Source: Algimonas ampicilliniresistens
GTDB lineage: Bacteria > Pseudomonadota > Alphaproteobacteria > Caulobacterales > Maricaulaceae
NCBI RefSeq assembly: GCF_030159955.1
Contig: NZ_BSNK01000002.1
Location: 992,001-1,056,000, forward strand
Reading direction: 5' to 3'
DNA: 64,000 nt
The notes under the pieces were generated by a model. That model saw only the letters and a program-made list of their open reading frames with translations. It was not told the DNA's origin and did not search any database. Below, in pieces: positions 5,984 to 63,405 of the stretch (positions are counted from its first letter, which is position 1; the number at the start of each line of letters is the position of its first letter). A program made the position numbers and the translations under genes.

Positions 5984-7426
5984 ATGATCAACCGTTCTCA
6001 ATCCCCGAATCCGAGTTCGCCGCCGGGATCAGGCTCGCGGTCACTTGGGCTGAAGCTCATCGTGATTCTGGCGCTGATCGTGCTCATGGCTGTGCCGGTC
6101 ATGTTCATATCATTCATCAGCTTTGAGCGGTCATCCCGCGCCGATGAGGTAACCCGCGAAGTGAGCCAAACTTATGGTGGTGAACAGCGATTACTGGGCC
6201 CCGTCCTCGTTGTGCCTTATCGTGAAACCCTGCACAACGGTGGAATTCGTGAGGGCGATTACATAGTTTCGGCTCTGATGGGTGAGGCAGTTCTGGACGG
6301 CGTCACAGTCGAAGAGAAAACTCGGTCTCTTTATAAGGTTCCGATTTACACGGCGGACGCAACATTCTCTGCGACTTTGCCAGATTTGAAAGAGACCTTG
6401 CCTCGACAAACGGGGCTCACCTTCGACATGGAGCAAGCCAAAATTGTCGTGGGGATTGGCGATGTGACGGGTCTCCGGTCCGACGCGAGTTTGACGGTTG
6501 GTGGCCAGACACTGACGTTCGAGCCATATTCAGGCGCAGCGCGCTTTGATGGATCCGACAGGATGTATGAGGTGGAAGCTGCGCGAAGACACACTCAGCA
6601 GCAATCAACAACGCCGCCCATTATTTATGATCGGTTAGATTCGGGCGGCGTAACGCTGCTCTCTGTTCCTGTGTCCAATTTGTTCAGCGAAGGCGAGACG
6701 ACCGTCTCGGCACAAATTGCTTTTACAGGTGCGAACCGGCTTTCTGTTTTACCTTATGCCAAAAGTACGACGTTACGGATGAGTTCAGATTGGCCGCATC
6801 CGGGTTTTGCGGGCCGTTTTCCGCCCGGAGACCGAACAATCACGGAGACGGGGTTTTCCGCCGAATGGACCGTTCCATATCTACGGCGCGGTTTACCATC
6901 TCAAGGTCGGGCGGGAGAGCTGATGGGTTTGGTCCACGGCAACTCGGATATGCAGGTCAATTTCGTCAGCCCGCTCAACCCATATCAAACCGTCAATCGG
7001 GCGCTGAAATATGCGGTGCTGTTCATTGGTCTCGTCTTTCTCGCCTATTTCCTCATGGAAACCTTACTCGGTGTAAGAGTTCATCCTGCGCAATATCTGC
7101 TGATCGGGATCGCCCAGGCCGTGTTCTACCTGCTGCTGCTCGCCTTCGCTGAACATATCGGGTTTACTCTGGCCTTTCTATTGAGCGCCACCGCGACCGT
7201 TGCTTTGACAGCGGGCTATGCAGGCGCTGTCTTCGGGCGGGGTTTCATCTGGAAATCAGCGCTTGTCTTTGGATCGGTTTACGCCTTGCTTTTCGTGCTG
7301 ATGCGTATTCAGGACTTTGCATTGATGGTCGGCGCACTGGTCAGCTTCGTCGCCGTTGCCGCGACCCTGTATCTGACGCGGAATTTGAACTGGTATGGCG
7401 ACAAAATGCCTGACCTAGAACGGTGA
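5984..7426 (+). CDS. creD: Inner membrane protein CreD
   Basis: This is a 480-residue CreD (Cet) family protein, an inner membrane protein tied in enterobacteria to the CreBC regulon and envelope integrity. It has one N-terminal transmembrane helix (about 22-47). A large periplasmic domain follows, containing the family motif around GPVLVVPY and the PLNPYQTVNRALKYAVLFIG block. At least five C-terminal helices then include the characteristic YFLMETL stretch and a final NWYGD. AGGAGG lies 5 bp before the ATG, but a complementary CCTCCT upstream may sequester it. No creB/creC genes are adjacent. Confidence 0.92.
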   Translation: MINRSQSPNPSSPPGSGSRSLGLKLIVILALIVLMAVPVMFISFISFERSSRADEVTREVSQTYGGEQRLLGPVLVVPYRETLHNGGIREGDYIVSALMGEAVLDGVTVEEKTRSLYKVPIYTADATFSATLPDLKETLPRQTGLTFDMEQAKIVVGIGDVTGLRSDASLTVGGQTLTFEPYSGAARFDGSDRMYEVEAARRHTQQQSTTPPIIYDRLDSGGVTLLSVPVSNLFSEGETTVSAQIAFTGANRLSVLPYAKSTTLRMSSDWPHPGFAGRFPPGDRTITETGFSAEWTVPYLRRGLPSQGRAGELMGLVHGNSDMQVNFVSPLNPYQTVNRALKYAVLFIGLVFLAYFLMETLLGVRVHPAQYLLIGIAQAVFYLLLLAFAEHIGFTLAFLLSATATVALTAGYAGAVFGRGFIWKSALVFGSVYALLFVLMRIQDFALMVGALVSFVAVAATLYLTRNLNWYGDKMPDLER

Positions 7427-46059: not shown

Positions 46060-46920
46060 GTGACAGACCTTAGCGACTTTGAGCGTGCCGCCAACGATGC
46101 CTTGCTAATACGGCTCATATCGGCCGAGACGGACATTGAAGCCGCTGCGACGGATTTGGAGCGGACAACCATTCTGCGCGAATGGGTCTATGCCAACACG
46201 AATTTTGCCCTGCATACATACCAGACCTTCAACATTGTCAAAGACTGGCACAAGCTCGTCCACCCCAGAGACGGGACGGTCTCTGTCGGCGCTCATATAG
46301 GTGCGCATATCCGTAATGAAGTCGGCGATATGTGCGGCCATATCGCGTGGGTTCTGCAACGGGTTTACGAGCTATGGGGTTATGAGGCGGGCATAGGGGA
46401 CTGGAGTGTTCCGGGCTTGGTCAGTCACACCTATACGGTTGTGAAAATCAAGAGCGAAAGTGAATGGGTCTGGCAAATTCAGGACTCAACCTATGATTTT
46501 GCCATCCTGCAGAACGACAGGCCAATCGACATCATTAAGGTGCTCGCCGAGTTGTGTGCTGGGCAAGCCGACGCTCTCACAGTGAAAACCGGATCGAGCC
46601 ATCGGTCGCGGAAAGTCCTGCTACACCCTGAAGAGATCGACAATGTGAGCGAGAACCCTAATTTCTACGTCTCCAGCACGCCAAAACATGCTGGCGACAC
46701 ACTGCTGGTGTTCGAATCGGGGGAGAAGTGGGCCGATATCAGTCAGGGCGATTTGGGCCGTCAGATCGGCAAATACATCGCCGATAGTTTCGGCTTGCCA
46801 GCTGACGCGATTTACGCGATGATTCTGTTCGAGACTATGCCGACCGAGGAAATAACCTCCTTGGCGGGCGAAATGCTCCGCCTGCTATTTGAAAAAACCG
46901 GTTACAAATCACCCACTTAA
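46060..46920 (+). CDS. Transglutaminase-like cytoplasmic protein
   Basis: This is a 286-residue protein with the Cys-His-Asp pattern of the transglutaminase/peptidase superfamily. Cys92 lies in DMCGHIAWVL at the start of a helix, His123 in VSHTYTVVKI, and Asp142 in WQIQDSTYDF. No signal peptide or transmembrane helix is visible. The start is a GTG at 46060 with only a weak ribosome binding site, so it may be off by a few codons. The next gene begins close by and may be coupled. The context is polysaccharide decoration. Activity could be proteolysis, amide transfer or a non-catalytic role. Confidence 0.65.
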   Translation: MTDLSDFERAANDALLIRLISAETDIEAAATDLERTTILREWVYANTNFALHTYQTFNIVKDWHKLVHPRDGTVSVGAHIGAHIRNEVGDMCGHIAWVLQRVYELWGYEAGIGDWSVPGLVSHTYTVVKIKSESEWVWQIQDSTYDFAILQNDRPIDIIKVLAELCAGQADALTVKTGSSHRSRKVLLHPEEIDNVSENPNFYVSSTPKHAGDTLLVFESGEKWADISQGDLGRQIGKYIADSFGLPADAIYAMILFETMPTEEITSLAGEMLRLLFEKTGYKSPT

Positions 46921-46966
46921 ATTTTATTTTTTCTGCGGCGACCAGACAGGCAAACGGAGCGCGACA

Positions 46967-49114
46967 TTGACCAAACGTATTGGCATCCTACTCGGCGGGT
47001 TTGTCATCGTTGCAACGGCGTTCTGTGCAGTCTTGTGGTCAGTTCTATGGTTGGACAATCAGTCGAAAGGCGCAGAGGCTCGTGTTTTCATCGACACAAT
47101 ATCCGAGGAGCCTAGGGCGCTGCTGGCCGAGGTCGCCGATTTACAGACGATATTGGAGCTCTACAATCCCAACTCGACCCTAATCGATAATACGCGCTTT
47201 GCGCTGTTCGATATCGAGATGACGGCGACCACACCGTTCAGATATATTGTCTGGGCCGGATATACTCGGTATGACGAGGCCGGTGAGATTACGGCTGTGC
47301 GTGATAGTCACTACCAGCTTCTGACCACGCGGCAGCCCGAACCCGGTAGCGATCCCCATGAGCTCTACCGCGAGCTCTATTCCAACGTCCTGCAACTCCC
47401 TGATGTCGAGACTTTCACCATTTCGCTCGGCGTCAACCAGTCTAAACGGGACAATAAAGCAAAGTTCATGCAGGACATTGGCCTGCGCGACGTCAAAGTC
47501 TTCGGTAAGGACGTCGACCGGCAATTCGTTCCGACACAAACCGGACACGCCCTTACCCGCACCCCGATCACTTTGAACGGCAAGCAGGTCGGCGAACGCC
47601 ATGCTGTGGAGTTTCCCGCTCTCGCTCGGCCGCGCGCCGACATTGTGAATCGTGGCTTTTTGCACGAGATTGCCGACGTGAAGAGCATTACCCTAGTCTC
47701 CCGCGATCATAGCTTAAAACCATTAGCCCAAGGGGAGCGATATTTTTTAGGCACTATGGCCCCACAAGCCTTCGGGCTGACACTGAATAGCGGCGAGACG
47801 CGCGTCGTGTCGTTTACAGGGGCGGACGGGGTTCAGATGGAGTTTGGCGCTGACGGTAAGCTTCGGCTGACGGTATATAGCTACAATCTTCGCGAACGAA
47901 CGACGCGAGGATCAGATAGTAGCCCTGATGAAAACGGAACACGCGAACATGTCAATCATGGCGTTACGAGCTCACTCCCTTCTTCAAATGTTGTCATGCA
48001 AATTGTCACGAGTGACACGATCGCATTCCCGACTTTGCAGCCAAGCGGCTACTTAGCGAGCTTCGCGATTACAGAGCACGCCGACTATAATGGAATCGAG
48101 CAAGATAATCTGGTTATGTATGGCAATCTTGAAGGTCGGTATGAGGCCGGATCTGGCTTCATCGGTCACGGTGTCCCCGTCACTAAAACCATGTTCCCGA
48201 CTGGGAACGACGCCGAACTCAGCATTGCAAATTCTGAGACGGGCGAAACTTTTATGATCCGCCAGTCCAATGTTGAGGATCATGACGACTACCGCCAGCA
48301 GCTATTGGAATATGCTCAATACGGTACGGTTGACATAGGGCTGCATTGCGGTGGTCTGATGCGAAAGCAGGGTAAGACAACCGAAGGCATCACGGAAGTC
48401 GTGACGGATATGACGCGGATGTTTGGTTCAAACATTTGGGTCGATCACGGAGGGCGCGAATGCTTGTGGGAGTCGGGTTGGGATCCAGATTCTGTCGCCT
48501 ATGTTTTACCCGCGCTAAAGTCTAACGACTTTCGGTTTTTGAATGTCCGCGATGACAAGTTTGGGAGCAAGCTCACTCTCGTAGAGGACGGTCAACCGGG
48601 TAATATTCTGTTTCGTGCGCCGGGGTTCGACGATGATGTGAGCGATGATTGGGTGCCCTATCACTTTACCACCAGCGATTTTGTCCCCTCCGCCCAGACG
48701 TTCTCAGCAGAGTTTTTAGACTCCATGATCGCGGAACGATCGTTTCAGAACATTCACGCCTATCTGCCTATTTCAACCCTAACGGTGCGCGATGGCATGC
48801 TGGTAAAGCACGATTGGTTCGAACCCGGATTGGCTGAGTTAGCGGATCGGCGGGATCGGGGTGACATCTTTTTGGCGACCGTAGAAGACTTGCTGGACCA
48901 TGTGCTTTTCGTGCGTGCGCTGGAAGTCCACGCGGTCGGTGACACCCTCCACGTGGCGGGCGCGGACGCGCAGACGCTACGTGAGCGTCAACCCACCATC
49001 GCCTTAATTCCATTCGGCGAAGCTGTTTTGGTCAGCCAGCCAGCCCTCATTCCGGACATGCCGTTTGCCTCTCGCGAGGATGCGGGCGTGACTTATCTCT
49101 ATCCAGAACAATGA
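46967..49114 (+). CDS. Membrane-anchored protein with polysaccharide-deacetylase-like features
   Basis: This is a 715-residue protein with one N-terminal transmembrane helix (about residues 3-25) and a large, probably periplasmic, domain. The second half contains a strand FAITEHADYNG, then GHGVPVTKTMFPT, YGTVDIGLHCGG and GSNIWVDHGGRE. Their order and spacing recall NodB-type (beta/alpha) barrel deacetylases, though the TFDDG motif is not recognisable. I therefore give this as a resemblance, not an assignment. The TTG start at 46967 is preferred because GGAG lies 7 bp upstream. An in-frame TTG at 46889 would overlap the preceding gene. Confidence 0.55.
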   Translation: MTKRIGILLGGFVIVATAFCAVLWSVLWLDNQSKGAEARVFIDTISEEPRALLAEVADLQTILELYNPNSTLIDNTRFALFDIEMTATTPFRYIVWAGYTRYDEAGEITAVRDSHYQLLTTRQPEPGSDPHELYRELYSNVLQLPDVETFTISLGVNQSKRDNKAKFMQDIGLRDVKVFGKDVDRQFVPTQTGHALTRTPITLNGKQVGERHAVEFPALARPRADIVNRGFLHEIADVKSITLVSRDHSLKPLAQGERYFLGTMAPQAFGLTLNSGETRVVSFTGADGVQMEFGADGKLRLTVYSYNLRERTTRGSDSSPDENGTREHVNHGVTSSLPSSNVVMQIVTSDTIAFPTLQPSGYLASFAITEHADYNGIEQDNLVMYGNLEGRYEAGSGFIGHGVPVTKTMFPTGNDAELSIANSETGETFMIRQSNVEDHDDYRQQLLEYAQYGTVDIGLHCGGLMRKQGKTTEGITEVVTDMTRMFGSNIWVDHGGRECLWESGWDPDSVAYVLPALKSNDFRFLNVRDDKFGSKLTLVEDGQPGNILFRAPGFDDDVSDDWVPYHFTTSDFVPSAQTFSAEFLDSMIAERSFQNIHAYLPISTLTVRDGMLVKHDWFEPGLAELADRRDRGDIFLATVEDLLDHVLFVRALEVHAVGDTLHVAGADAQTLRERQPTIALIPFGEAVLVSQPALIPDMPFASREDAGVTYLYPEQ

Positions 49115-49216: not shown

Positions 49217-50818
49217 ATGAAATACCGATTGATCGCATGCCTCGCATTGCTTCTCGCCGCGTGCGGGGGCGGGGGCGGGGGCGGGGACCAAGCAAGCGTT
49301 CCGATTGCAGGGAGCGGCGAAACCGTCAGCGCTGCAGACTTCGAGCTATCAAATGCCAACCGCGTCGTCTCCAGTCTGTCCAGCGACGATCTGCGCGTGC
49401 TCGTTAATGTCGAGGAGCTGGGCAACCGTTTCGCCGACCTTGGCAACGACGCGAAGATCGGGCTGATGAAAGAATGGCTGGGCGAAGAACTCAATCTCGT
49501 CATCGCGCGCGGCGAGCAGAACCTGCTTAAGACGGTCGAGCTGGCCGTCGTCTCGGTCGAGGACATGAACGAATACGGTAGTTCGGATGAGCCATTCGAA
49601 CTGATCGCGTTGATCAACCTGGTGCCGGACGGCGACCAGTTGGTCGTCCAGACGGCCGAGTCTAACCTGCGCGCGCTGGAGCCAGCTTTGCGCGCAATTA
49701 CCTTGTCATTGGAGTCAGAGGATGGCGGGGTTATCAAAGACGCCGATTTCCTGACCAATTATGTCGATACCTACTATCTGGTTGAAGGGCAGCCGCAGCA
49801 ATTCTTCTTCGAAAGCTTGGTTCTTTCCGAGGCGGTCGATCACAATTACTACATTGTCGATCAGCGCAACCTTCCCTTCAAGACCACAGCCCGCAACCGT
49901 TATGTTGAGCTGTTCCCGCAGGCCGGCGATGCGGGCACCTATTCCATGCGGATCAACATGTATACGAGCGAGAACGAGTATATCGGCCGCCATGCCGTCA
50001 ACCTAATCGTGTCTCCGCCGACCTGCGAAGTTCAGACGGATCTGAACGCGCTAACCATCGGCCACAGTGTCTCGACGTCTTGGCCTGTCCTGTTCGCCGA
50101 TCGGATGCGTAATCTGGAAACGGTCGACCTGACGATGAACGGCACGCAGGAATTCGTTTGGCGGCTGCCAGGGACAGATGAGAGTATCTATGAAGGTGTG
50201 TTCACGGAATCGAGCTCGGCCTTCAATCTATACAATATCCTGCGCACGGGTGAAAATCCGCCCGGATACGATCCAGTCGCGTCAAAGCAGCATGTTCGCA
50301 GCCCGTTCGTATTCAAGAACGAGGCCGGAGACTTCGCCGTCGATATGGCGCGCTACAAGCGTGACGTTCTGGGCGGAAAAGATATCGATCTAGTTATCAT
50401 TAATCTGGGCGACAATGACGCGTGGGGCGCGAACCTGGAAACTTGGGAAACGCGTATGGAGCGGGTCCGCAATGATGCCAATACATTGATCGACCACGTT
50501 AAGGAGCTCGGGCCCGATGTCGTCGTGGGCTATATGATGCCACTTAATTACAGTCATAACCAAAATAATTGGAAGCTCGATTACAAAGGTCGATACGACT
50601 ATTGGGAACAGAAGCAGAAGCGTCATATGTTTATCAAGACCATCCGGGCTTTGGAGGCAGAACGGGGCGACTTCTCGGTCATTCCAACTGATTTCTCGCT
50701 CGATGGCGCCAACGATTACCCGAACTTTAGCGCGCTGCATCCGCCGACGGATCCGACACGCGACTATGTCGAACAACTCGTCGCCTGGTCCCTGCACCAT
50801 GGTTGTGCGCCGCAGTAA
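49217..50818 (+). CDS. SGNH-hydrolase-like lipoprotein with polyglycine linker
   Basis: This is a 533-residue predicted lipoprotein: signal peptide, lipobox LAAC with Cys16, then seven glycines. The first 265 residues of the mature protein are unrecognised. From about 278 an SGNH-like domain is suggested by TIGHSVS (Ser284, with GHS instead of GDS), IINLGDNDAW (block III, Asn400) and FSALHPP (His508). This fits a carbohydrate esterase or an acyl transferase on the outer face of a membrane. It stands directly before the dlt-like genes (186-bp gap), so it may act on the same polymer. Confidence 0.65.
   Translation: MKYRLIACLALLLAACGGGGGGGDQASVPIAGSGETVSAADFELSNANRVVSSLSSDDLRVLVNVEELGNRFADLGNDAKIGLMKEWLGEELNLVIARGEQNLLKTVELAVVSVEDMNEYGSSDEPFELIALINLVPDGDQLVVQTAESNLRALEPALRAITLSLESEDGGVIKDADFLTNYVDTYYLVEGQPQQFFFESLVLSEAVDHNYYIVDQRNLPFKTTARNRYVELFPQAGDAGTYSMRINMYTSENEYIGRHAVNLIVSPPTCEVQTDLNALTIGHSVSTSWPVLFADRMRNLETVDLTMNGTQEFVWRLPGTDESIYEGVFTESSSAFNLYNILRTGENPPGYDPVASKQHVRSPFVFKNEAGDFAVDMARYKRDVLGGKDIDLVIINLGDNDAWGANLETWETRMERVRNDANTLIDHVKELGPDVVVGYMMPLNYSHNQNNWKLDYKGRYDYWEQKQKRHMFIKTIRALEAERGDFSVIPTDFSLDGANDYPNFSALHPPTDPTRDYVEQLVAWSLHHGCAPQ
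49265..49286 (+). repeat. GGGGGC microsatellite encoding polyglycine
   Basis: Three tandem GGGGGC units plus GGGG lie inside the lipoprotein gene, just after the lipidated Cys codon. Each unit equals two Gly codons, so copy-number change alters linker length without a frameshift. Confidence 0.7.
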
Positions 50819-51004: not shown

Positions 51005-52603
51005 ATGACACAGTTTGAAACTCTAAACGAGGCTGCAGACAATCTGTGCCTTCGTATCCATTCGGTTGCCCAACGTCACGGTAAGCTTGATGCGCTCTGG
51101 GTAAAGGGCAAGACGCTCAGCTATGCGGAGCTCCACTCTCGTGCGTGTGCAATCGCCAATGCATTACGGTCCCACGGAATTAAAGAGGGTGATAGGGTAG
51201 CTCTGTTTTCCCACCGCACAGAGATGCTCTACATCTCCGTTTTAGGCGTACTCTACGCCGGAGCGACCTATGTCGCGATGAACCCGCGCTATCCCGCAGC
51301 GCGCAACCGTATGATCTTGGAGCTCTCAGGAGCGCGGGGCTTGATAATCGCCGAAGCACTACTGTCCGATGCGCCGGATTTGACGGACGGCCTGAACGAC
51401 CTGCGTGTCGTAATCGCGCCAGAATCTGAGACGGGTCGCGGACTTGGTTCGCTGACCACTATTGGCAAGGAGGGTCTGACCGAAACAGATAGGCCTGCGT
51501 TGCACGATGTAGACTCAGATAGCCTCGCCTACATTATGTTCACGTCAGGCAGCACGGGCAAACCCAAAGGCGTGCCGATCAGCCACGGCAATGTTATCGA
51601 CTACGTCACCAATGTGGTTGCGTTGGGCGGGCCCGTTGAACCAGGAGAAAAGGTCATTCAGCTTGCCGACGTAACGTTCGACATTTCTGTCCACGACATG
51701 TTTTACGCTTGGACGCAGGGCGCTTCGATAATCTCTATTCCGGAAAATTCCGGCCTTATGGCCACGCGTTTTGTCGAGGAGCACGGCATCACCCATTGGT
51801 TCTCGGTCCCGTCTACGGCAAGACTGCTAGGTGAGGCGGGCGTGCTGAAACCTGGCAGCCTTTCTACCATTCGATGCTCGTTCTTCTGCGGAGAACCGCT
51901 TATTGCATCCGTCGCAACGCGCTGGCGCGAAGCGGTCGGCGACGAACCGGTCTACAATCTCTACGGCCCGACCGAGGGCACAGTGGCAATTTCAGGCCGC
52001 CGTTTCAGGACTGAGGATTTCGATCCGCACGAAGTCGTGTCACTCGGCACAGTATTTGGTGACAATCGGATGGAGCTGTTCGATCCGGAAACCAACGCCG
52101 CTCTTACCGACCCGTCCGCTATTGGTGAAATCTGCCTTTCAGGTGCCCAGATTACGCCGGGCTATTGGCGCAACGACGGGCTCAATGCGCAGCGATTCTT
52201 CACCGACGATTGCGGTCGACGTTGGTACAAGACTGGCGATCTTGGTCTTCTGACGGATGATAAGGGTCTCGTCTTTTCGGGACGGGTTGATCATCAGGTC
52301 AAGATCCGAGGATACCGGGTTGAGCTATCGGAGATCGAGGGCGTGATCCGGGAGTCGACTGGCGCGGGTTCCGTCGCGGTGCTGCCATGGCCGTTATCCA
52401 GCGACGGCGCGCCGCTAGGTTGCGTCGCCTTTCTGCCGATGGCAGAATCGGACGTGCTACGCGCGAGTATCCGCAAGGCCTGCGACGAAAAACTGCCCGA
52501 CTATATGAGGCCATCAGAGGTTTATTTCTTGGACGAGTTGCCCCGCAATGCCAATGGTAAGACCGACTACAAGGCGTTGGAAAAGAGCCCGCTTCTTTTC
52601 TAA
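51005..52603 (+). CDS. DltA-like amino acid adenylation enzyme
   Basis: This is a 532-residue stand-alone adenylation protein that should activate an amino acid with ATP and load it on a carrier protein. The core motifs are MFTSGSTGKPKGVPISH (178-194), YGPTEGTVA (320-328), YKTGDLG, GRVDHQVKIRGYRVEL and the C-terminal NANGKTDYK (Lys519). The segment FFCGEPL (Cys295) matches the FCGE motif of D-alanine-activating DltA. By alignment to the phenylalanine-activating reference, I read the pocket as D-I-H-S-F-C-L-V-A, against D-L-M-S-L-C-T-V-A for DltA. The substrate is thus likely D-alanine or a related small amino acid. It is the first gene of a dlt-like run. Confidence 0.85.
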   Translation: MTQFETLNEAADNLCLRIHSVAQRHGKLDALWVKGKTLSYAELHSRACAIANALRSHGIKEGDRVALFSHRTEMLYISVLGVLYAGATYVAMNPRYPAARNRMILELSGARGLIIAEALLSDAPDLTDGLNDLRVVIAPESETGRGLGSLTTIGKEGLTETDRPALHDVDSDSLAYIMFTSGSTGKPKGVPISHGNVIDYVTNVVALGGPVEPGEKVIQLADVTFDISVHDMFYAWTQGASIISIPENSGLMATRFVEEHGITHWFSVPSTARLLGEAGVLKPGSLSTIRCSFFCGEPLIASVATRWREAVGDEPVYNLYGPTEGTVAISGRRFRTEDFDPHEVVSLGTVFGDNRMELFDPETNAALTDPSAIGEICLSGAQITPGYWRNDGLNAQRFFTDDCGRRWYKTGDLGLLTDDKGLVFSGRVDHQVKIRGYRVELSEIEGVIRESTGAGSVAVLPWPLSSDGAPLGCVAFLPMAESDVLRASIRKACDEKLPDYMRPSEVYFLDELPRNANGKTDYKALEKSPLLF

Positions 52604-52698
52604 ACTATGCAAGCTGTAATCCTGCGCAGCCTATGGCTGTGCTTGTGGCCAGATAAAGCTTATGCCATAGAAAGCGCTCTATTTTCCTTGGGTCGGCG

Positions 52699-52718
52699 AA
52701 GGGACGTGGCAGTCCCTT
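52699..52718 (+). other. Hairpin with short T-rich tail between dltA-like and carrier genes
   Basis: AAGGGAC-N6-GTCCCTT is a perfect 7-bp stem followed by TATT, in the 182-bp gap before the carrier-protein gene. It could reduce read-through and set the ratio of the two products. Confidence 0.4.
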
Positions 52719-52785
52719 TATTGCACCGAACCTCTTTGAAGACCGCGCATTGGGCCGCTCTCGTCCCTTATCTAGGATAATTCGC

Positions 52786-53025
52786 ATGACCACTCTCTCC
52801 AAGATCGAGAGCATTTTCCGCGACACTTTCGAGGACGACACGCTCGTCATCACGCACGCGACCAAAGCCGACGATATCGATGAGTGGGATTCACTGACTC
52901 ATGTCGGGCTGATTTTGACCATTGAGGCGGCTTTTGAGACGCGCTTCAATACGACCGAGATCGCCAGCTTGCAGAATGTCGGCGACCTCGTAACACTTCT
53001 GGAAAATCGGGGGGCGGCGGCCTGA
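52786..53025 (+). CDS. Acyl carrier protein (DltC-like)
   Basis: This is a 79-residue carrier protein. The phosphopantetheine site is Ser36 in DEWDSLTHVGLI, the D-S-L motif at the start of helix 2. Length, acidity and the helix pattern fit a single ACP domain. It follows the DltA-like gene and precedes an acetyltransferase and an MBOAT gene, so it is the probable acceptor of the activated amino acid. The ATG at 52786 is chosen; the frame continues 12 codons upstream without a better start. Confidence 0.88.
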   Translation: MTTLSKIESIFRDTFEDDTLVITHATKADDIDEWDSLTHVGLILTIEAAFETRFNTTEIASLQNVGDLVTLLENRGAAA

Positions 53026-53061
53026 TTGCATAGGGTTCCAACCTTGCAGGGGGCACAAGTT

Positions 53062-53643
53062 ATGTTGATACCAGCTCGGCAACATCTGGACACGGCTGCC
53101 TGTGCCGAGCGGATTTATCAGTCACTCGACAGGTTCTACGACCGTCTGCCTCTCACACATAACCAGCTAATCGAAATTCTCGGCTTAGAACTTTCCGAGG
53201 ACGGAACCGAAGTGGAGCACAGCTACGTCATTGGTAATAAAACTACTGACGCATTCGCTTCGGTCTATCCTCTTGACGAGCTCAAGGCCCGCCAGATGGG
53301 CAGCACTTTTCATCTAATGCGCGCGACGCCTGTGTCAGAGCAAAAGGCCATGCGCGCAGAATTGAGTGCACACCAAAAACGCGTTCAATCCGATGTGCAA
53401 GATTCCGACGTACCCACGACCTATCTCGCCCGCATCGCAGTTGCCAAGGATCGGCGGGGGCAAGGTCTCGGCAGGGCGATTTTGCAGGGGATGCGTAACG
53501 AAGGGCTCATCGAAGGTGCGATGGCGCTGCACGTCGCGGCGGACAACACGCCCGCGATCGGTTTCTACCGTAAGCTCGGCCTAGAATTCGTAGGTGAAAG
53601 CGACAAGCCATTCCGGCTGATGGTGGGCACTCTTGTTCTCTAG
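53062..53643 (+). CDS. GNAT-family N-acetyltransferase in the dlt-like cluster
   Basis: This is a 193-residue protein. The acetyl-CoA-binding motif A reads RIAVAKDRRGQGLGRAIL (R-x-x-G-x-G), followed by ALHVAADNTPAIGFYRKLGLEFVG, typical of GNAT enzymes. The N-terminal half is a long family-specific extension. The start at 53062 has AGGGGG about 9 bp upstream. Its place between the carrier protein and the MBOAT suggests that it acetylates the amino group of the activated amino acid or a sugar amine. The substrate is inference from position. Confidence 0.82.
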   Translation: MLIPARQHLDTAACAERIYQSLDRFYDRLPLTHNQLIEILGLELSEDGTEVEHSYVIGNKTTDAFASVYPLDELKARQMGSTFHLMRATPVSEQKAMRAELSAHQKRVQSDVQDSDVPTTYLARIAVAKDRRGQGLGRAILQGMRNEGLIEGAMALHVAADNTPAIGFYRKLGLEFVGESDKPFRLMVGTLVL

Positions 53644-53675
53644 TGCCCCAAGGCCGAAACGTGGAGTCGTAAGGT

Positions 53676-54881
53676 TTGCCTGATTTGGCCTTTATACCTG
53701 ATCCCATCAATGTCGCCTCGTTCGAGTTCGCGCTGATCGTGCTGGTCGTGCTGCTCATCCGTCTGGTGGGCGGTGAGCGGACCTTGCCTTACACGCTTGC
53801 CGCGACGGGCCTTTTTATGGCCGCGACATGGATCGACATGAAGGCACTGATGGTGCTGATCGCAGCCCTCGTGCCGCACTATTTTATTATACGTTATTTC
53901 TGGGGGCAGCCGGAGCGGGCGCGGGGTCACGTGCTGACCGCCGCAATCCTTTGGCAGATCGCTGTGCTGACCTCGACCAAGATCACGGGTCTCAGCGTGC
54001 AGTGGGGCATATATGGCGTGATTGGTCTGTCTTACATGACCTTCCGCCAGATAGGCCTATTGCTGTCAGCGGCACGCCAGAGCGCGCCTTTCCGGTCTAT
54101 CGATTGGCTGTCATTCATGCTCAACCCGTTCACCCTCGTGGCCGGGCCAATCCAGTCCTGGGGCGAGCATGTCGACCAATATACCGATACGAAGTCGCAA
54201 ACGCGCCAAAGTCGGATCACGGCTGCGCATCTCATCGCGACAGGTCTGATCAAAATTACCGTGCTGGCACCGATCTTCGCTGGGCAAGACGATTTTGCCA
54301 AACTGGCGACAGCTAACGCCGACGCGCTTGACTGGTTCATCAGCTATTTCAGCTACTATATTTTCCTCTATCTCGACTTCTCCGGCTATGTCGACGTGGT
54401 CATGGGGTGCGGAATTTTGTGCGGCTACAAATTGCCTGAGAACTTCAATAGACCTTATCTATCGACCAATTTCCAAGACTTCTGGAACCGCTGGCACATG
54501 ACTTTAGGTGTCTGGTTTCAAGCCCATGTCTTCACACCCATGCTGGTTACACTTCAGCGGTCGCGCCGTTTCAAGAGCACGCACACCTCAATCGTGCTGG
54601 CCTTGGTGGCGGTCTTCCTTCTGATCGGTGTCTGGCATGGGATTGCGTGGAACTACGCGCTGTTCGGGGTCATTCATGCATTGGGCGTTGTTGGAACTTA
54701 TATGCTAGGACGCAGGCGTTTGAAGCTCAAGAAGGCGGGTAAGCTACGCGAGCTCTCTGATGGCATGGCCAAGCTCTCTTTTGGCGTGCGGTTGGTCGCC
54801 TTTCAGATCTTCGTCGCAGGGACGTTCGTCTTGCTGAACAACGATGTTTCCACTGTATGGGAGGCCTTAATCCGTGGCTGA
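53676..54881 (+). CDS. MBOAT-family O-acyltransferase (DltB/AlgI-like)
   Basis: This is a 401-residue polytopic membrane protein of the MBOAT family, which moves acyl groups across the membrane from a carrier thioester. Conserved regions are FMLNPFTLVAGPIQ, FSGYVDVVMGCG, NFNRPYLSTNFQDFWNRWH and the catalytic His321 in IGVWHGIAWN. The C-terminus ends VWEALIRG and carries no Tyr-containing acyl-shuttle hexapeptide, unlike MBOATs with that motif fused. The start is a TTG at 53676 behind GGAG and AAGG. The next microprotein gene overlaps its end by 8 bp. Confidence 0.92.
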   Translation: MPDLAFIPDPINVASFEFALIVLVVLLIRLVGGERTLPYTLAATGLFMAATWIDMKALMVLIAALVPHYFIIRYFWGQPERARGHVLTAAILWQIAVLTSTKITGLSVQWGIYGVIGLSYMTFRQIGLLLSAARQSAPFRSIDWLSFMLNPFTLVAGPIQSWGEHVDQYTDTKSQTRQSRITAAHLIATGLIKITVLAPIFAGQDDFAKLATANADALDWFISYFSYYIFLYLDFSGYVDVVMGCGILCGYKLPENFNRPYLSTNFQDFWNRWHMTLGVWFQAHVFTPMLVTLQRSRRFKSTHTSIVLALVAVFLLIGVWHGIAWNYALFGVIHALGVVGTYMLGRRRLKLKKAGKLRELSDGMAKLSFGVRLVAFQIFVAGTFVLLNNDVSTVWEALIRG

Positions 54882-55002
54882 AGCTGAGACGACACCAACC
54901 TCTGCCAGCGCGCTTTCGCTGCTCTGGCTCGCCGTGAAGATCCTGATTATAGTCGTTCTGGGTAGCACGGAAGGTATCATTCCTGTTTATCAGGGATTCT
55001 AA
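54874..55002 (+). CDS. DltX-like single-pass microprotein with C-terminal Tyr hexapeptide
   Basis: This is a 42-residue predicted membrane microprotein. A short polar N-terminus (first residues AEAETTPTS) is followed by one hydrophobic segment (about 13-30) and a tail ending PVYQGF. In the Dlt pathway, the MBOAT transfers D-Ala to a tyrosine in a C-terminal hexapeptide of the microprotein DltX. The x-x-Tyr-x-x-Phe ending here, directly between an MBOAT and a DltD-like gene, matches that arrangement. GTG at 54874 must be the start, because an in-frame TAA lies at 54868-54870; GGGAGG precedes it by 9 bp. Its end is 6 bp before the next ATG. Confidence 0.75.
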   Translation: MAEAETTPTSASALSLLWLAVKILIIVVLGSTEGIIPVYQGF

Positions 55003-55008
55003 CCGGTC

Positions 55009-56019
55009 ATGGCATCACGATTTCTCGGATATGCAGGCGTCGCAGCCACCGTTTTGGTGGGGTTGCTGGCGGCGGAATGGGCCGTGCGGCTAGACAGCAC
55101 ATCGTCCTATGTCGCCTTTCGCCCAGCGGAGATGACGAGCGAGGATATTCTGAGTGCCAAGCTGAACGCATTGTCTGATCAGAGCGGTCCAACGGCGGTG
55201 CTGGTCGGCGATTCAGTTGCCTACGGTGGGATCATGGCCGATCACGGCTATGATGACTGGCGCGAGCGCGATCTGTCCGTCGCGATCAATGCAGAGCTAG
55301 AGATTGCGGGTGAGGAATTACGGGTCGCGAACTTCGCCACGAACGGGCTGACCCCTGCTGACACGGTACAGGTCGTGGAGCGGTCGCTGAAGGCCGGTGC
55401 AGATGCGGTTATTATCGTAGTGGGTTTGCGAGGTTTCTCAAACTCGCTCAATGAGCCAGACGCTCGCTATACCTATAGTTGGGGACGCCCCTTAATGGGT
55501 CGCGAGGTCTCCCGCCAGGCCAACTCCGTCTGGTGGACTAAACCTACAACGGAATTCTTGCTCTCCGCCGCTCTCGACGGCCCACTCAAAGATGTGTTGA
55601 CGCGGTTGCGCGCGTCCGACCAGACCGAAGGTCCAGTTCTCGGCACAATCCAGCTTCTGCAAGTCAAACGACGCCTAGCCGAACTTTCTTTCGATCCGGA
55701 GCAGTCCTTCCAGGCTGAGGCCTTTTCCCGGACGCTGTCTCTGGCAGAGGCGGCTTCCGTTCCCGTCGTGGTGGTCTACGCGACTGAGAACGAGCGGGTG
55801 CGCCCATCTTTTATTGATGATGCGCCCTTGGCGGCAGCCCGCGACTCATTGGAAGCGCTGATTGACGATAGCCGGCCCCAGATCACCTATCTGGGTCCTA
55901 ATCCCGCGCTCTCGGCAGACCTTTATGTCGATCACATGCATCCCACGCCCGATGGCTACAGCGTCATGGCGAAAACTGTGGCGCCAGCTCTCATCAAAAC
56001 GCTGCGTCGCGGGTCGTGA
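55009..56019 (+). CDS. DltD-like SGNH acyltransferase, membrane-anchored
   Basis: This is a 336-residue protein. An N-terminal transmembrane helix (about 5-25) anchors an extracytoplasmic SGNH domain. Block I is AVLVGDSVAYGG (Ser69), block II has NFATNG (Gly113), and block V has YVDHMHPTPDGY (Asp308, His311). All three catalytic residues are in place. In the Dlt pathway the serine enzyme DltD takes the acyl group from the microprotein and passes it to the polymer. This gene sits where such a transferase is expected, 6 bp after the microprotein. It could instead be a plain esterase. Confidence 0.82.
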   Translation: MASRFLGYAGVAATVLVGLLAAEWAVRLDSTSSYVAFRPAEMTSEDILSAKLNALSDQSGPTAVLVGDSVAYGGIMADHGYDDWRERDLSVAINAELEIAGEELRVANFATNGLTPADTVQVVERSLKAGADAVIIVVGLRGFSNSLNEPDARYTYSWGRPLMGREVSRQANSVWWTKPTTEFLLSAALDGPLKDVLTRLRASDQTEGPVLGTIQLLQVKRRLAELSFDPEQSFQAEAFSRTLSLAEAASVPVVVVYATENERVRPSFIDDAPLAAARDSLEALIDDSRPQITYLGPNPALSADLYVDHMHPTPDGYSVMAKTVAPALIKTLRRGS

Positions 56020-56123: not shown

Positions 56124-56223
56124 TTTATGACGCATACTCGTATGTCGCCTATGATTTCGGTTCTATCGAGGCGCTTCGAGACCCGCATGAGCGCGGACTT
56201 TTTTCTATAATTTGGTGAATATG

Positions 56224-57183
56224 ATGAGCACTCCCATAGTGGCTGTTTTTGGCTGCGGCCATTGGGGCAAAAATTTAGCCCGAAATTTCGCCGAGCTCGG
56301 CGCACTGCGCGCCGTCGTTGACCCTAATCCGGAAACAGCCGCCAAGCATGCGAGCATGCACGGCGTCACCGCGATGACAAAAGACGAGGCGCTGGCCTCG
56401 GACATTGACGGTGTCGTGATCGCGGCCCCGGCCGAGTATCACGCTGCACTCGCGCTGGAAGCCGCCGCTGCTAGCAAGCATGTTTATGTTGAGAAGCCGA
56501 TCGCCCTGACCGAGGCTGATGCGCTATCCATGATCGAAGCGACTAAGAAGGCGGACCGCATCCTGATGGTCGGCCACCTTTTGCAATATCACCCGGTTTT
56601 CGTTGCCCTCCGAGACATGGTTCGCGCCGGCGGACTTGGCAAGCTGCGCTACGCCTACAGCCACCGCCTTTCGACTGGAAAATTTCGGGTTGAAGAAGAT
56701 GCATTCTGGAGCCTGGCTCCGCACGATGTTTCCATGCTCCTCGCTTTGTTTGACGAAGCGCCCAGCCATGTCAGGCAAAGCGGTCTGGATTTCGTGACAG
56801 ATGGAATCGCGGACGAGACTCGGCTCGACATGGTGTTCCCATCAGGCGGACGTGCGCACGTCTTCGCGTCTTGGCTGCACCCGTTCAAGGAACAGCGTCT
56901 CGTTGTTGTTGGCGAAGATGCCATGGCTGTCTTTGACGACGTCAAACCGTGGGAAGAGAAGCTCGCGCTTTACAAGCACGTGATCGACACATCCGGCCCT
57001 GTGCCCGTACCCCACAAGGCTGACGTCGAATATGTCGACGTGCCCCAGGGTGAGCCGCTCAAGTCCGAATGTCAGCATTTCCTCGATTGCATTGCGAACG
57101 GCACCACGCCTTTCACTGACGGCGAGGAAGCCCTGCGCGTGCTGCGTGTCATGGCTGCCGAAAAGCTCCCAAAACCGATCTAG
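56224..57183 (+). CDS. Gfo/Idh/MocA oxidoreductase (WlbA/WbpB-like)
   Basis: This is a 319-residue NAD-dependent oxidoreductase. The Rossmann motif FGCGHWGKNLARNFAEL, the family block YVEKPIALT and the active-site region FWSLAPHDVSMLLA (His) are present. These features fit WlbA/WbpB enzymes, which oxidise C3 of UDP-GlcNAc-uronate. The next gene is a sugar aminotransferase, the usual partner. The ATG at 56224 is preferred, since GGTGA lies 5 bp before it; 56221 is also an ATG. The exact substrate is inferred from context. Confidence 0.82.
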   Translation: MSTPIVAVFGCGHWGKNLARNFAELGALRAVVDPNPETAAKHASMHGVTAMTKDEALASDIDGVVIAAPAEYHAALALEAAAASKHVYVEKPIALTEADALSMIEATKKADRILMVGHLLQYHPVFVALRDMVRAGGLGKLRYAYSHRLSTGKFRVEEDAFWSLAPHDVSMLLALFDEAPSHVRQSGLDFVTDGIADETRLDMVFPSGGRAHVFASWLHPFKEQRLVVVGEDAMAVFDDVKPWEEKLALYKHVIDTSGPVPVPHKADVEYVDVPQGEPLKSECQHFLDCIANGTTPFTDGEEALRVLRVMAAEKLPKPI

Positions 57184-57287
57184 CTCAGAAATACCGCGCT
57201 GAAACGGACGGTCACGCAGTGTGCGCTGCCAAAGCGCGCCAAACACGATAACCGACCGCGCGATCACATACACGGAAAGCCAATTTC

Positions 57288-58406
57288 ATGCAGTTTATCG
57301 ACCTTCATGCCCAGCAGGACCGCCTGCGCACCGAAATCGAGGGCGGCATTGCCGATGTGCTGAAATCTGGGCGCTATATTCTTGGCCCGCAAGTGGCGGA
57401 ATTCGAAACTAATCTGGCCATGTTCGGCGATGCCCAATTCGCGACCGGCTGCGCCAACGGCACGGACGCCATTCTGCTGCCGCTGCTGGCTTGGGGTGTC
57501 GGTCCGGGCGACGCGGTGTTCTGTCCGTCTTTCACCTATTGCGCGACGGCAGAAGTGGTTGCCCTCGCAGGCGCGACGCCGGTCTTTATCGACATCGACC
57601 GCGACACCTACAATATGGATGTGAACAGCCTGAAACAGGCCATTGCCGATGTGAAGGCAAAAGGCGAGCTGAATCCCAAAGCCGTCATCGCCGTCGATTT
57701 GTTTGGGCAAAGCGCCGATTATGATGCGCTGAACCCGGTCGTGCGCGAACACGGCATGAAATTCATTTCCGACTCCGCGCAGGGCTTCGGAACGACGCTG
57801 AACGGTAAACACCCGCTGCACTGGGCGGATGTGCAAACCACCAGCTTTTTCCCGGCCAAACCGCTCGGCTGTTACGGCGATGGCGGCGCGATCACGACCA
57901 ATGATGAGGAATTGTGCAAAGCCCTCGACAGCCTGCGTGTGCACGGCAAGGGCACCGACAAATACGATAATGTCCGCATCGGCATGAACTCACGTCTGGA
58001 CACGATACAAGCCGCGATCCTGCTGCCGAAACTGGCCGTATTCGCCGACGAGATCGAAAAGCGCAATGTCGTTGCGACCCGCTACACCGAGGGCTTGGCG
58101 GGCGTTGCCGACCGCATTCCGACCGTCATGGACGGTGTGGTCTCGACTTGGGCGCAATATACGATCGAAGTGCCGGACCCATTCGCCTTCGCCGACGCGC
58201 TGAAAGCCGAAGGCATTCCAACGGCGCGCTACTATCCGAAGCCGGTTCACATGCAGACCGCCTATGAACATTATCCCGTCGCGGGCAATGGCCTGCCTAA
58301 TACGATGGACTGCATCGACAATATCATCAGCTTGCCTATGCACCCCTACTTGTCCGAAGAGGATCAGGCGAAGGTGATCGCCGCGGCCAAGTCGGCGCTG
58401 GCCTAA
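57288..58406 (+). CDS. DegT/DnrJ/EryC1-family sugar aminotransferase (WbpE-like)
   Basis: This is a 372-residue PLP-dependent aminotransferase. The PLP lysine is Lys191 in TSFFPAKPLG. Other hallmarks are QFIDLHAQQDRLR at the N-terminus, YILGPQVAEFE, CANGTDAI and RIGMNSRLDTIQAA. These are typical of WbpE/WlbC-type enzymes that place an amino group on C3 of a UDP-sugar. It follows the WlbA-like oxidase by 104 bp, and the pair would convert a uronate sugar to its 3-amino form. The amidotransferase gene follows 21 bp later. Confidence 0.9.
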   Translation: MQFIDLHAQQDRLRTEIEGGIADVLKSGRYILGPQVAEFETNLAMFGDAQFATGCANGTDAILLPLLAWGVGPGDAVFCPSFTYCATAEVVALAGATPVFIDIDRDTYNMDVNSLKQAIADVKAKGELNPKAVIAVDLFGQSADYDALNPVVREHGMKFISDSAQGFGTTLNGKHPLHWADVQTTSFFPAKPLGCYGDGGAITTNDEELCKALDSLRVHGKGTDKYDNVRIGMNSRLDTIQAAILLPKLAVFADEIEKRNVVATRYTEGLAGVADRIPTVMDGVVSTWAQYTIEVPDPFAFADALKAEGIPTARYYPKPVHMQTAYEHYPVAGNGLPNTMDCIDNIISLPMHPYLSEEDQAKVIAAAKSALA

Positions 58407-61377: not shown

Positions 61378-62330
61378 TGACCATGCGTCTACTCATCACG
61401 GGTGGGGCGGGATGCCTCGGTGCGAATATCATTGATCACGTGATTGAACGTGACGGCGTCGAAGCGATCGCCGTCATCGACAACTTCGCAACGGGTTACC
61501 GCGAAAGCCTGCCAGCGGACCATAAGAAGCTGACGGTCGTCGAAGGTGACGTTGCCAATAAGGCAGCCGTGGACGCGCTGTTTGCTGATTTTCGTCCGAC
61601 CCACGTCATCAATTCGGCTGCCGCGTATAAGGATCCTGACGACTGGACGGAAGATGCGCGGACCAATTATCTCGGCTCGATCAACGTCGCCAAGGCATGT
61701 GCCGACCATGATGTGAAGCGGCTGGTAAACTTTCAGACGTCGCTGACCTATGGCCGTCCGCAGACCGTGCCAATCCCGAACAACGCGCCTAGCGCACCGT
61801 TCACATCTTACGGCGTATCCAAGACAGCCGGCGAAGATGCGATGCTGTCCCTGTTCCCGAACACGGCCAGCCTGCGCCTGTCCAACGTGACAGGACCGCG
61901 ATTGTCTATCGGTCCGATCCCGACGTTCTACACCCGTCTGAAAGCGGGTAAGTCCTGCTTCTGCTCAGACACCTATCGTGATTTCATGGATATGAGCGAC
62001 TTCCTCGACTTTCTTGATCTTGCTCTGGTGGAAGGGGGTCCGACCGGTACGTTCAATGTCGGCACGGGCGAAAGTAAATCGATCAAGGACGTGTTCGATC
62101 AGGCGGTCGAATATCTCGGCATCACGCTAGATGAACCCGTGCCCGTAGTCCCGGCTGGCGACGACGATGTGCGCGAAATGGTACTAGACGCGTCCGAGAC
62201 CGAAAGTGCCTTCGATTGGTCTCCCAAAGTTTCTTTTGAAGACACGATTCGTCGCATGTATGAATGGTACGACAAGAACGGCGTCACGGCGATTTTCAGC
62301 CATGTCAAAACGCCCGATAGCGTCAGGTAG
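61377..62330 (+). CDS. NAD-dependent sugar epimerase/dehydratase (SDR), paralogue B
   Basis: This is a 317-residue paralogue of the preceding SDR with the same landmarks: LLITGGAGCLGANIID, VINSAAAYKDPDDWTED, FQTSLTYG, SYGVSKTAGED and GPIPTFYTRLKAGK. The shared AAAY-x-DPDDW signature suggests that both act on similar sugars. Two adjacent copies could serve two steps or two stereochemical outcomes. It is fused to the upstream transcript by a one-base overlap, and the next lipoprotein gene follows after 4 bp. Confidence 0.85.
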   Translation: MTMRLLITGGAGCLGANIIDHVIERDGVEAIAVIDNFATGYRESLPADHKKLTVVEGDVANKAAVDALFADFRPTHVINSAAAYKDPDDWTEDARTNYLGSINVAKACADHDVKRLVNFQTSLTYGRPQTVPIPNNAPSAPFTSYGVSKTAGEDAMLSLFPNTASLRLSNVTGPRLSIGPIPTFYTRLKAGKSCFCSDTYRDFMDMSDFLDFLDLALVEGGPTGTFNVGTGESKSIKDVFDQAVEYLGITLDEPVPVVPAGDDDVREMVLDASETESAFDWSPKVSFEDTIRRMYEWYDKNGVTAIFSHVKTPDSVR

Positions 62331-62334
62331 GCTT

Positions 62335-63405
62335 ATGTTACGCTCTGTGCTTTTCGTTTCCGGTTTTATCGGTCTCGCTGCTTGCACAGGTGACGTGGCT
62401 GAGCCGCAGCCTGAGGCGCTCGAGTTTCCGGCCCTGACCTTGACGGACTTCTCCCATGAAGGAACATCGACGGCGGTTTTGACGTTCAATCATGATGCTT
62501 TGGGCGAGGTGGCCTACCGCCTCGACGGCGATGACCCCCGCATAATCGCGTCCGAAGACGGCATTGTGCGCATCGACTATTATGCGGACGCGCCGGACGG
62601 CGATGGGGTCCTTGACGAACAAAGTTACGTTCTAGAATTTCAGGATGCCAACGACCAGCCTCACTCTATCGAGTTGATCCGTCAAAGCCCTGGGGAGCTT
62701 CTGGAGGCTTTTGAGTTCGACAAGGTTGATGGTTACACCATTCTTGGATCTAATACGCTTCTGTTCTCAAATGGCGATGTCGACTCGGCACATGTGCTGG
62801 ATCGCAGCTATTCGGAAGACTTCACTGTAAATGATGCGGTCGCCAATGCGGACCTCATCTACCCCGAACTCCACATTGCCGCAGATATTGTCGGGACGCT
62901 TTATGCTCAACCTTTATCATTCGGTCCGAGAGACCGTGGCGGGGCGAAGAGTCTGATCGAAGAGATCGAGAACATCCGAAATGGTGCTGACGGTATTCAG
63001 TGCGCGGGTTTCCGCGAATTGTGGGGTCATGCCTCGGAAGACCACGGCCTTATATTTCGGTATGTCGGCCTCTACAGCTACGCGCCCTATTTCGATGACC
63101 TGACACCCTATAGTCATGCCATCGCAGAGGTTATGACGGACGACGGTTGGAAAGCTATCGACCCGTGGAATAACGCGGCCTTTCGCGTGCGAGAGCGTTA
63201 CGTGTCCGCCGAAGAATTGCGCCAAGCAGTGAAACGTGAACCGGCGACGGTCGAGATCGTGATGCTTAATCCAGGCCTTGAAAAGATCATTCTGGGGGCT
63301 GACGGATCCACGACGTCGACATTGATTAAATTCCCGGAGCGAGATTTCTACTTCAACTATTTCGGCGCCATTGAAACAGTTGATGTAACGTTCACTAGTG
63401 GATAA
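62335..63405 (+). CDS. Transglutaminase-like lipoprotein
   Basis: This is a 356-residue predicted lipoprotein with lipobox LAAC (Cys17). The N-terminal about 160 residues look like a beta-rich domain with SYVLEFQDAN and HSIELIRQSPGELLEAF. The C-terminal half has the transglutaminase-type triad: Cys223 in IQCAGFRELW, His261 in PYSHAIAEVM and Asp276 in WKAIDPWNNAAF. The ATG at 62335 is chosen for the signal peptide; the upstream frame lies inside the SDR gene. It begins 4 bp after that gene, so it belongs to the polysaccharide transcript. The target is unknown. Confidence 0.72.
   Translation: MLRSVLFVSGFIGLAACTGDVAEPQPEALEFPALTLTDFSHEGTSTAVLTFNHDALGEVAYRLDGDDPRIIASEDGIVRIDYYADAPDGDGVLDEQSYVLEFQDANDQPHSIELIRQSPGELLEAFEFDKVDGYTILGSNTLLFSNGDVDSAHVLDRSYSEDFTVNDAVANADLIYPELHIAADIVGTLYAQPLSFGPRDRGGAKSLIEEIENIRNGADGIQCAGFRELWGHASEDHGLIFRYVGLYSYAPYFDDLTPYSHAIAEVMTDDGWKAIDPWNNAAFRVRERYVSAEELRQAVKREPATVEIVMLNPGLEKIILGADGSTTSTLIKFPERDFYFNYFGAIETVDVTFTSG

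Follow-up and report, generated by a model that had tools for sequence, protein, structure and literature searches.

A putative carrier-fed tyrosine-shuttle module for envelope O-acylation in a polysaccharide locus of Algimonas ampicilliniresistens

What might an alphaproteobacterium, in which no teichoic acid is expected, do with a gene set that resembles the Gram-positive Dlt pathway? We addressed this question in a window of 64,000 nucleotides from Algimonas ampicilliniresistens (the whole stretch of DNA analysed, G000:C2:992001-1056000 within a 3.26-Mb genome), which holds genes for an amino acid adenylation enzyme (A-domain), an acyl carrier protein, an MBOAT, a membrane microprotein and an SGNH protein. 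The best explanation, to which we give a probability of roughly 0.5, is a carrier-fed Tyr shuttle for envelope O-acylation with exchangeable loading enzymes, which would probably acylate the polysaccharide of the same locus with an N-acylated amino acid. Taken by itself, the carrier-fed Tyr shuttle is highly probable by analogy with known systems, while the odds that its cargo is N-acyl-aminoacyl are about even.

All five genes listed in an earlier note on this DNA were confirmed where it had placed them, on the forward strand (+): a free-standing A-domain, the proposed carrier loader (51005..52603; PF00501 6.5e-79), a carrier with a WDSL phosphopantetheine serine (52786..53025), a short MBOAT of 401 aa without a fused shuttle tail (53676..54881), a DltX-like membrane microprotein of 42 aa with the C-terminus PVYQGF, the proposed acyl-Tyr shuttle (54874..55002), and SGNH2, a membrane-anchored SGNH/GDSL protein proposed as periplasmic O-acyltransferase (55009..56019; PF00657 above gathering). 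Three further members of the module, all on the same strand, were added to that list: a GNAT-family acetyltransferase between the carrier and the MBOAT (53062..53643; PF00583 2e-11), proposed to N-acetylate the carrier-bound amino acid; the lipoprotein-like SGNH protein SGNH1 (49217..50818; PF13472 6.3e-05, under the gathering score); and h741 (46889..49114), an open reading frame (ORF) of 741 codons, with an uncertain start codon, an N-terminal hydrophobic stretch and no known domains. From the carrier gene onward the intergenic gaps are 36, 32, -8 and 6 bases, and the carrier gene lies two genes upstream of the MBOAT in the same packed run.

The predicted export side of this module has the features of the MBOAT-SGNH Tyr-shuttle class. 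The MBOAT carries the invariant catalytic His (WHG) required of that class, present in 27 of the 27 aligned sequences; the C-terminal Tyr motif, which may be fused or on a microprotein, is provided by the latter; and SGNH2 has the Ser-Asp-His set of a partner (Ser69, Asp308 and His311, kept in 3/3 aligned). The structure model of SGNH2 (predicted local distance difference test, pLDDT, 61.5) consists of an N-terminal helix and an SGNH fold, for which DltD and TesA tie as top solved structures at Z 14.1, with 216-217 versus 167 aligned residues. With a separate tail and a carrier, the window MBOAT does not fit the acyl-CoA-fed PatA/AlgI type, which has a fused Tyr motif and no carrier. A single clade of the microprotein-bearing MBOATs was weakly rejected by the approximately unbiased (AU) test (p 0.0415 with 4 rows, 0.0166 with 6 rows).

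On sequence grounds the microprotein gene is a real one. Its product, with one hydrophobic stretch, was the sole one among the window's 489 ORFs of 35-110 codons that was hydrophobic enough and ended in YxxF, and its codons differ from those of its counterpart in the closest relative of the locus, Robiginitomaculum NORP61, 14/7/23 times at positions 1/2/3. The two tails are almost identical (GSTEGVVPVYQGF in NORP61 vs GSTEGIIPVYQGF in the window), and the microprotein and MBOAT genes of NORP61 overlap by 8 bases, as in the window, if the start is at 2606. Compared with the FxYxxF of DltX, PVYQGF keeps the Tyr and the last Phe. Against 1000 shuffles that keep hydrophobicity, the window microprotein aligned better than all of them with that of G535, a genome from a different family of the class, and with that of a Rhodospirillales-labelled contig; its score of 53 with G535 was equalled with a true DltX (L012), and 0/1000 shuffles scored as high in either case. 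The likeness to a Verrucomicrobia microprotein was not significant (180/1000 shuffles). L012 is a Dlt operon on a contig labelled Proteobacteria (Centralia MAG 106, a metagenome-assembled genome); its MBOAT groups with Chloroflexota at 100/100 and its carrier, less firmly, at 90/87, and it is a case of misbinning or transfer.

The module is kept in NORP61, which belongs to the same family by genome search (genus in Alphaproteobacteria, order Maricaulales), despite a different genomic context. Identity to the window is 61% for the MBOAT, 63% for the A-domain, 52% for SGNH1, which has the same neighbourhood, and 45% for h741. In NORP61, SGNH1, h741, the A-domain, a formyltransferase, the carrier and an alpha/beta hydrolase lie on one strand, convergent with the MBOAT, the microprotein and SGNH2, and the neighbours are an MFS transporter, a MATE transporter, a response regulator, two thioesterase-fold proteins and an IS481-type transposase. 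The shuttle mechanism, which the earlier note had proposed by analogy, is thus borne out, still as an analogy, by the linkage of MBOAT, Tyr-tail microprotein and SGNH genes, by their conservation in NORP61 and by the alignments of the microprotein with two other alphaproteobacterial-type loci and with true DltX. Profiles of the MBOAT and of h741 each matched 2/399 genomes of the order, an identical pair in both cases, so that the set was probably inherited together and is sporadic; neither matched in 12 same-genus genomes among those listed. At 1e-60 the MBOAT profile matched 2/385 genomes of the class, the window's and G535. The transposase gene (L085 17791-18678) sits beside the MBOAT of NORP61, close to where the contig ends, and because of this position the module may be mobile.

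Despite these likenesses to Dlt, the window A-domain, MBOAT and carrier fall outside its groups by the tests applied. The A-domain is above the cutoff of TIGR01733 and reaches 242.1 bits with the DltA equivalog TIGR01734 (cutoff 559.85), and the MBOAT reaches 186.6 bits with the DltB equivalog TIGR04091 (cutoff 375). Moreover, in each of the three trees a branch sets off the Dlt rows from the window protein, with 12 DltA rows (100/100, in a tree flagged for long branches), 11 DltB rows (100/99) and 10 DltC rows (94/100, with a rough and unsettled bootstrap). Within a preselected candidate set, the window carrier matched the carriers of ten other loci at 4e-13 to 1e-28 and DltC at E 0.05 or worse, and FkbH lay near the MBOAT in 8/10 of the loci with matching carriers; the carrier can therefore be classed, from these matches, as of the FkbH-locus (glycerate-type) kind and not as DltC. 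Judged in this way, the window system is Dlt-like in predicted function and lies outside Dlt, so that the 'complete dlt-like operon' of the earlier note stands as a function and fails as family membership. The A-domain is 34-38% identical to separate plasmid A-domain genes (the 12 of 15 rows that were listed) versus 24-30% to DltA.

The main ground for an amino group capped before export is the exchange of the N-acylating enzyme in an otherwise kept set: in place of the window GNAT, NORP61 has a formyltransferase (PF00551 2.2e-19), with gaps of 2 bp on the A-domain side and 11 bp on the carrier side. Of the two cargoes that the earlier note had allowed, aminoacyl and N-acetyl-aminoacyl, this exchange would favour an N-acylated amino acid. 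The amino acid itself is not predicted from the specificity code. At the positions that we take to form this code, the A-domain reads DIHSFCLVAK in the window and DIHAFCLVAK in NORP61, compared with DLMSLCTVAK in 2/6 DltA rows; 6/10 and 5/10 of these positions, respectively, agree with this commonest DltA code of the alignment, Cys included.

We propose a route in five steps. The A-domain would activate an amino acid and load it on the phosphopantetheine of the carrier, where the GNAT may N-acetylate it (N-formylation in NORP61). The MBOAT would then transfer the acyl group, held as a thioester on the carrier, to the periplasmic side, where the Tyr of the PVYQGF tail would receive it; SGNH2 would take it over on Ser69 and link it as an ester to a glycan of the periplasm, the likeliest being the polysaccharide that is exported by the ABC system of this locus. 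Finally, SGNH1 and h741 may act downstream in the envelope, in relay, trimming or acceptor handling. For the first, third and fourth steps, the predicted parts are present, ordered and conserved, with their catalytic residues; we infer the second and fifth steps, the amino acid and the acceptor. In the window genome the locus polysaccharide is plausible as the simplest acceptor, because exporter, glycosyltransferase and sugar genes follow the module. N-acetyl-alanyl and N-acetylglycyl groups are known on O-antigens, N-linked to amino sugars, according to passages of PMC3210612; an ester-linked N-acetyl-aminoacyl substituent would be unusual. An N-capped amino acid would be neutral, and its advantage could then not lie in the positive charge by which Dlt is commonly explained.

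Several observations weigh against this proposal. This precise module has been seen in just two genomes, and the SGNH2 profile matched 1/398 genomes of the phylum, the window's own. In the window microprotein a Pro stands where the shuttle motif has its first Phe, and the NORP61 MBOAT (L004) has Asn at the position of the window His274, the second conserved His (RWH), which is His in the other 26/27. A joint clade of the window MBOAT and DltB was not rejected (AU p 0.103), which leaves room for a position sister to DltB. The NORP61 copy is without sugar or polysaccharide genes among ORFs of at least 100 codons in 18.8 kb, and the surface polysaccharide acceptor of the earlier note, plausible in the window, is not supported there. 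Both the GNAT and the formyltransferase families act on nucleotide amino sugars too, the best matches of the NORP61 enzyme among solved structures are sugar formyltransferases, with LgrA among the weaker ones, and the window module is directly followed by genes for a UDP-GlcNAc 3-dehydrogenase-like oxidoreductase (below cutoff) and a DegT aminotransferase, both of amino-sugar type (56212-58406).

These last points bear on the alternative that fares best, namely that the same shuttle carries an amino acid left unacylated, as D-alanine is in Dlt, and that the GNAT acetylates the amino sugar of the neighbouring genes, with the NORP61 formyltransferase likewise acting on a sugar. We consider this unlikely, yet a serious contender. 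The code positions that the A-domain pocket has in common with DltA fit it, as do the formyltransferase matches and the oxidoreductase and DegT genes, but the NORP61 formyltransferase is placed between the A-domain and the carrier in a stretch without sugar genes, and the window GNAT between the carrier and the MBOAT. An A-domain and carrier pair on a Solidesulfovibrio plasmid (L102) is also accompanied by an N-acetyltransferase, of the AAC(3) family and two genes after the carrier, with no nonribosomal peptide synthetase (NRPS) annotated in 10.8 kb.

It is improbable that the A-domain, GNAT and carrier serve a target other than a polysaccharide, either in building a small molecule for export or in modifying a protein or a lipid. 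In its favour, the closest plasmid A-domains among those listed are separate genes in all five opened loci, with an adjoining carrier gene in four and surroundings of NRPS or polyketide synthase (PKS) type in two, and polysaccharide genes are absent from the 18.8 kb around the NORP61 copy; yet MBOAT, SGNH and Tyr tail together are, in passages of PMC12148441, the signature of envelope polymer acylation, and ABC exporter and glycosyltransferase genes follow in the window. It is very improbable that the window holds a true Dlt operon for D-alanylation, gained by horizontal transfer and still Gram-positive in ancestry: the gene content is like dltXABCD, DltB is the best solved match of the MBOAT, the microprotein aligns with DltX as well as with that of G535 and the joint clade with DltB was not rejected, but the window proteins lie outside the DltA, DltB and DltC groups, subject to the limits of the A-domain and carrier trees, and miss the NCBIfam DltA and DltB cutoffs.

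The carrier-fed Tyr shuttle with exchangeable loaders may extend beyond the window and NORP61. We compared 82 MBOAT loci, that is, 80 kept matches of a similarity scan minus L031 (no MBOAT ORF) and L035 (a 3.8-kb contig beginning in front of the A gene, with no microprotein found), plus G535 and three plasmid loci picked by carrier; L001-L003, L084-L089 and L091-L096 were excluded as own, duplicate or partial, and seven more loci had no MBOAT. The tail was fused in 12 loci, on a nearby microprotein only in 69 and both in 0, and the remaining locus, L038, has a DltX-like microprotein (6071-6298) ending FIYQGY, with Tyr for the last Phe. Because the microprotein rule demanded YxxF, the positive side of this survey holds partly by construction; as a control, no YxxF microprotein ORF stood beside any of the 12 fused MBOATs. 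A window-type carrier lay within 6 kb of the MBOAT in 14/82 loci and FkbH in 11/82; three of these loci had been chosen by carrier, and one, L018, is labelled Lachnospiraceae and so is not Gram-negative; the tail was fused in nine of the 14 and on a microprotein in five.

Plasmids that combine FkbH with the carrier and an MBOAT come from Tistrella, Sinorhizobium meliloti (pSymB) and Rhodobacteraceae SC52 (L097, L099, L100), and the same combination is present, among others, in G535, L005, L006, L017, L073 and L077. Each of the five plasmid loci examined because of their carrier had an FkbH/HAD-IIIC-type gene within two genes, and 3/5 had an MBOAT. The G535 run consists of a transglutaminase-like gene (PF01841 1.8e-13), MBOAT, microprotein, SGNH, carrier, MaoC-like and FkbH genes. 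Next to ten inspected MBOATs, a GxS and late DxxH pattern was found in seven; Pfam support for SGNH was below gathering in L005, G535, L006 and L017 and absent in L073, L077, L097, L099, L100 and L072, so that the SGNH partner, evident from sequence in the window and NORP61, is only likely in several other loci. The S. meliloti MBOAT neighbour is labelled a TonB-dependent receptor, yet it matches no Pfam family and displays the patterns GGST and DPGH. On a Magnetococcales contig (L072) an MBOAT with its tail fused accompanies an A-domain and a carrier, an incomplete fit, as this carrier matches the window's only at 0.0044 and the gene beside the MBOAT is without SGNH signs.

In these loci carrier and MBOAT stand together in several Gram-negative lineages, with a Tyr tail either fused or on a microprotein. 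They suggest that carrier-fed shuttling operates in these lineages and that fusion of the tail to the MBOAT, or its separation, may have happened repeatedly. They also suggest that the acyl group can be exchanged by swapping cytoplasmic enzymes, which predicts new ester substituents on surface polysaccharides. Tentatively, at somewhat less than even odds, we propose a modular class beyond Dlt, in which one MBOAT-Tyr tail-SGNH export unit is served by interchangeable cytoplasmic loaders (A-domain with N-acetylation, A-domain with N-formylation, or FkbH) and would decorate Gram-negative surface polymers, by ester linkage, with capped amino acids or glycerate-type groups, the window and NORP61 forming its N-acyl-aminoacyl branch.

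In the surroundings of the module, genes for an asparagine synthase-like protein, an epimerase, an aminotransferase, a UDP-GlcNAc 2-epimerase, a glycosyltransferase and an ABC ATPase lie downstream, and the pair at 56212-58406 looks as for a 3-amino sugar. No excess of promoters or terminators and no compositional island was found (GC 0.54-0.56 over the module vs 0.53-0.58 over the window). Transglutaminase-like proteins, with a Cys-His-Asp pattern seen by eye, flank polysaccharide genes in the window (46060-46920, 62206-63405) and in L084 (474-1613, 2821-4011); the two of L084 alone have weak Pfam support, and those of the window, without a Pfam match, are transglutaminase-like by eye only. 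Elsewhere in the genome (L002, C1:1174937-1175947) a second MBOAT has a fused tail, FLYFRF, and is of acyl-CoA type by architecture. The structure model of h741 was unusable (pLDDT 35.5); a NodB-like deacetylase was rejected for it, with no Pfam or PDB match, as was homology to a 497-aa protein of G535, with no profile match, and no link was found between SGNH1 and a 667-aa protein of G535. SGNH2 and h741 had no match on plasmids at 1e-5.

Compared with known systems, the module shares with Dlt (DltXABCD, Gram-positive) an A-domain, a separate carrier, a short MBOAT, a Tyr-tail microprotein and an anchored SGNH protein. It differs, besides the family placement and the tail motif, in the microprotein gene, which comes after the MBOAT in the window, and in the extra GNAT or formyltransferase, SGNH1 and h741. 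Linear gramicidin synthetase LgrA, a formylating NRPS initiation system, offers a model for the NORP61 variant, since there too a carrier-bound amino acid is formylated, but it has no MBOAT/SGNH export step. PatA/PatB and AlgI-type acetylation likewise pair a Gram-negative MBOAT bearing a Tyr motif with an SGNH transferase; they draw on acetyl-CoA and have the tail fused to the MBOAT (PMC12148441), whereas the window has a carrier and a separate microprotein. For DltX and PatA, the same paper treats the Tyr-shuttle chemistry of this class as established. The Discussion of that paper (2025) describes MBOAT/SGNH pathways other than Dlt as having neither a carrier nor a DltX-like microprotein, and the window-type and FkbH loci suggest otherwise. 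Going by listings, apart from the papers cited here, no paper on such carrier-fed MBOAT loci was found in the open-licence PubMed Central (PMC) literature, nor anything relevant there on FkbH or HAD-IIIC with MBOAT in polysaccharide work, the one examined paper on FkbH and MBOAT (PMC10143770) dealing with aeruginosins; the Bordetella dlt-like precedent cited by the earlier note was not found in the open-licence literature examined either. In passages of PMC10143770, FkbH loads glycerate, which is further methylated, in aeruginosin-type synthetases. The FkbH-carrier-MBOAT loci resemble the window in their carrier family, in an MBOAT with a fused or separate Tyr tail and, in most of those inspected, in a neighbour with an SGNH-like pattern, its Pfam support being weak or absent; they differ in that FkbH replaces the A-domain and a methyltransferase or VOC protein is often there.

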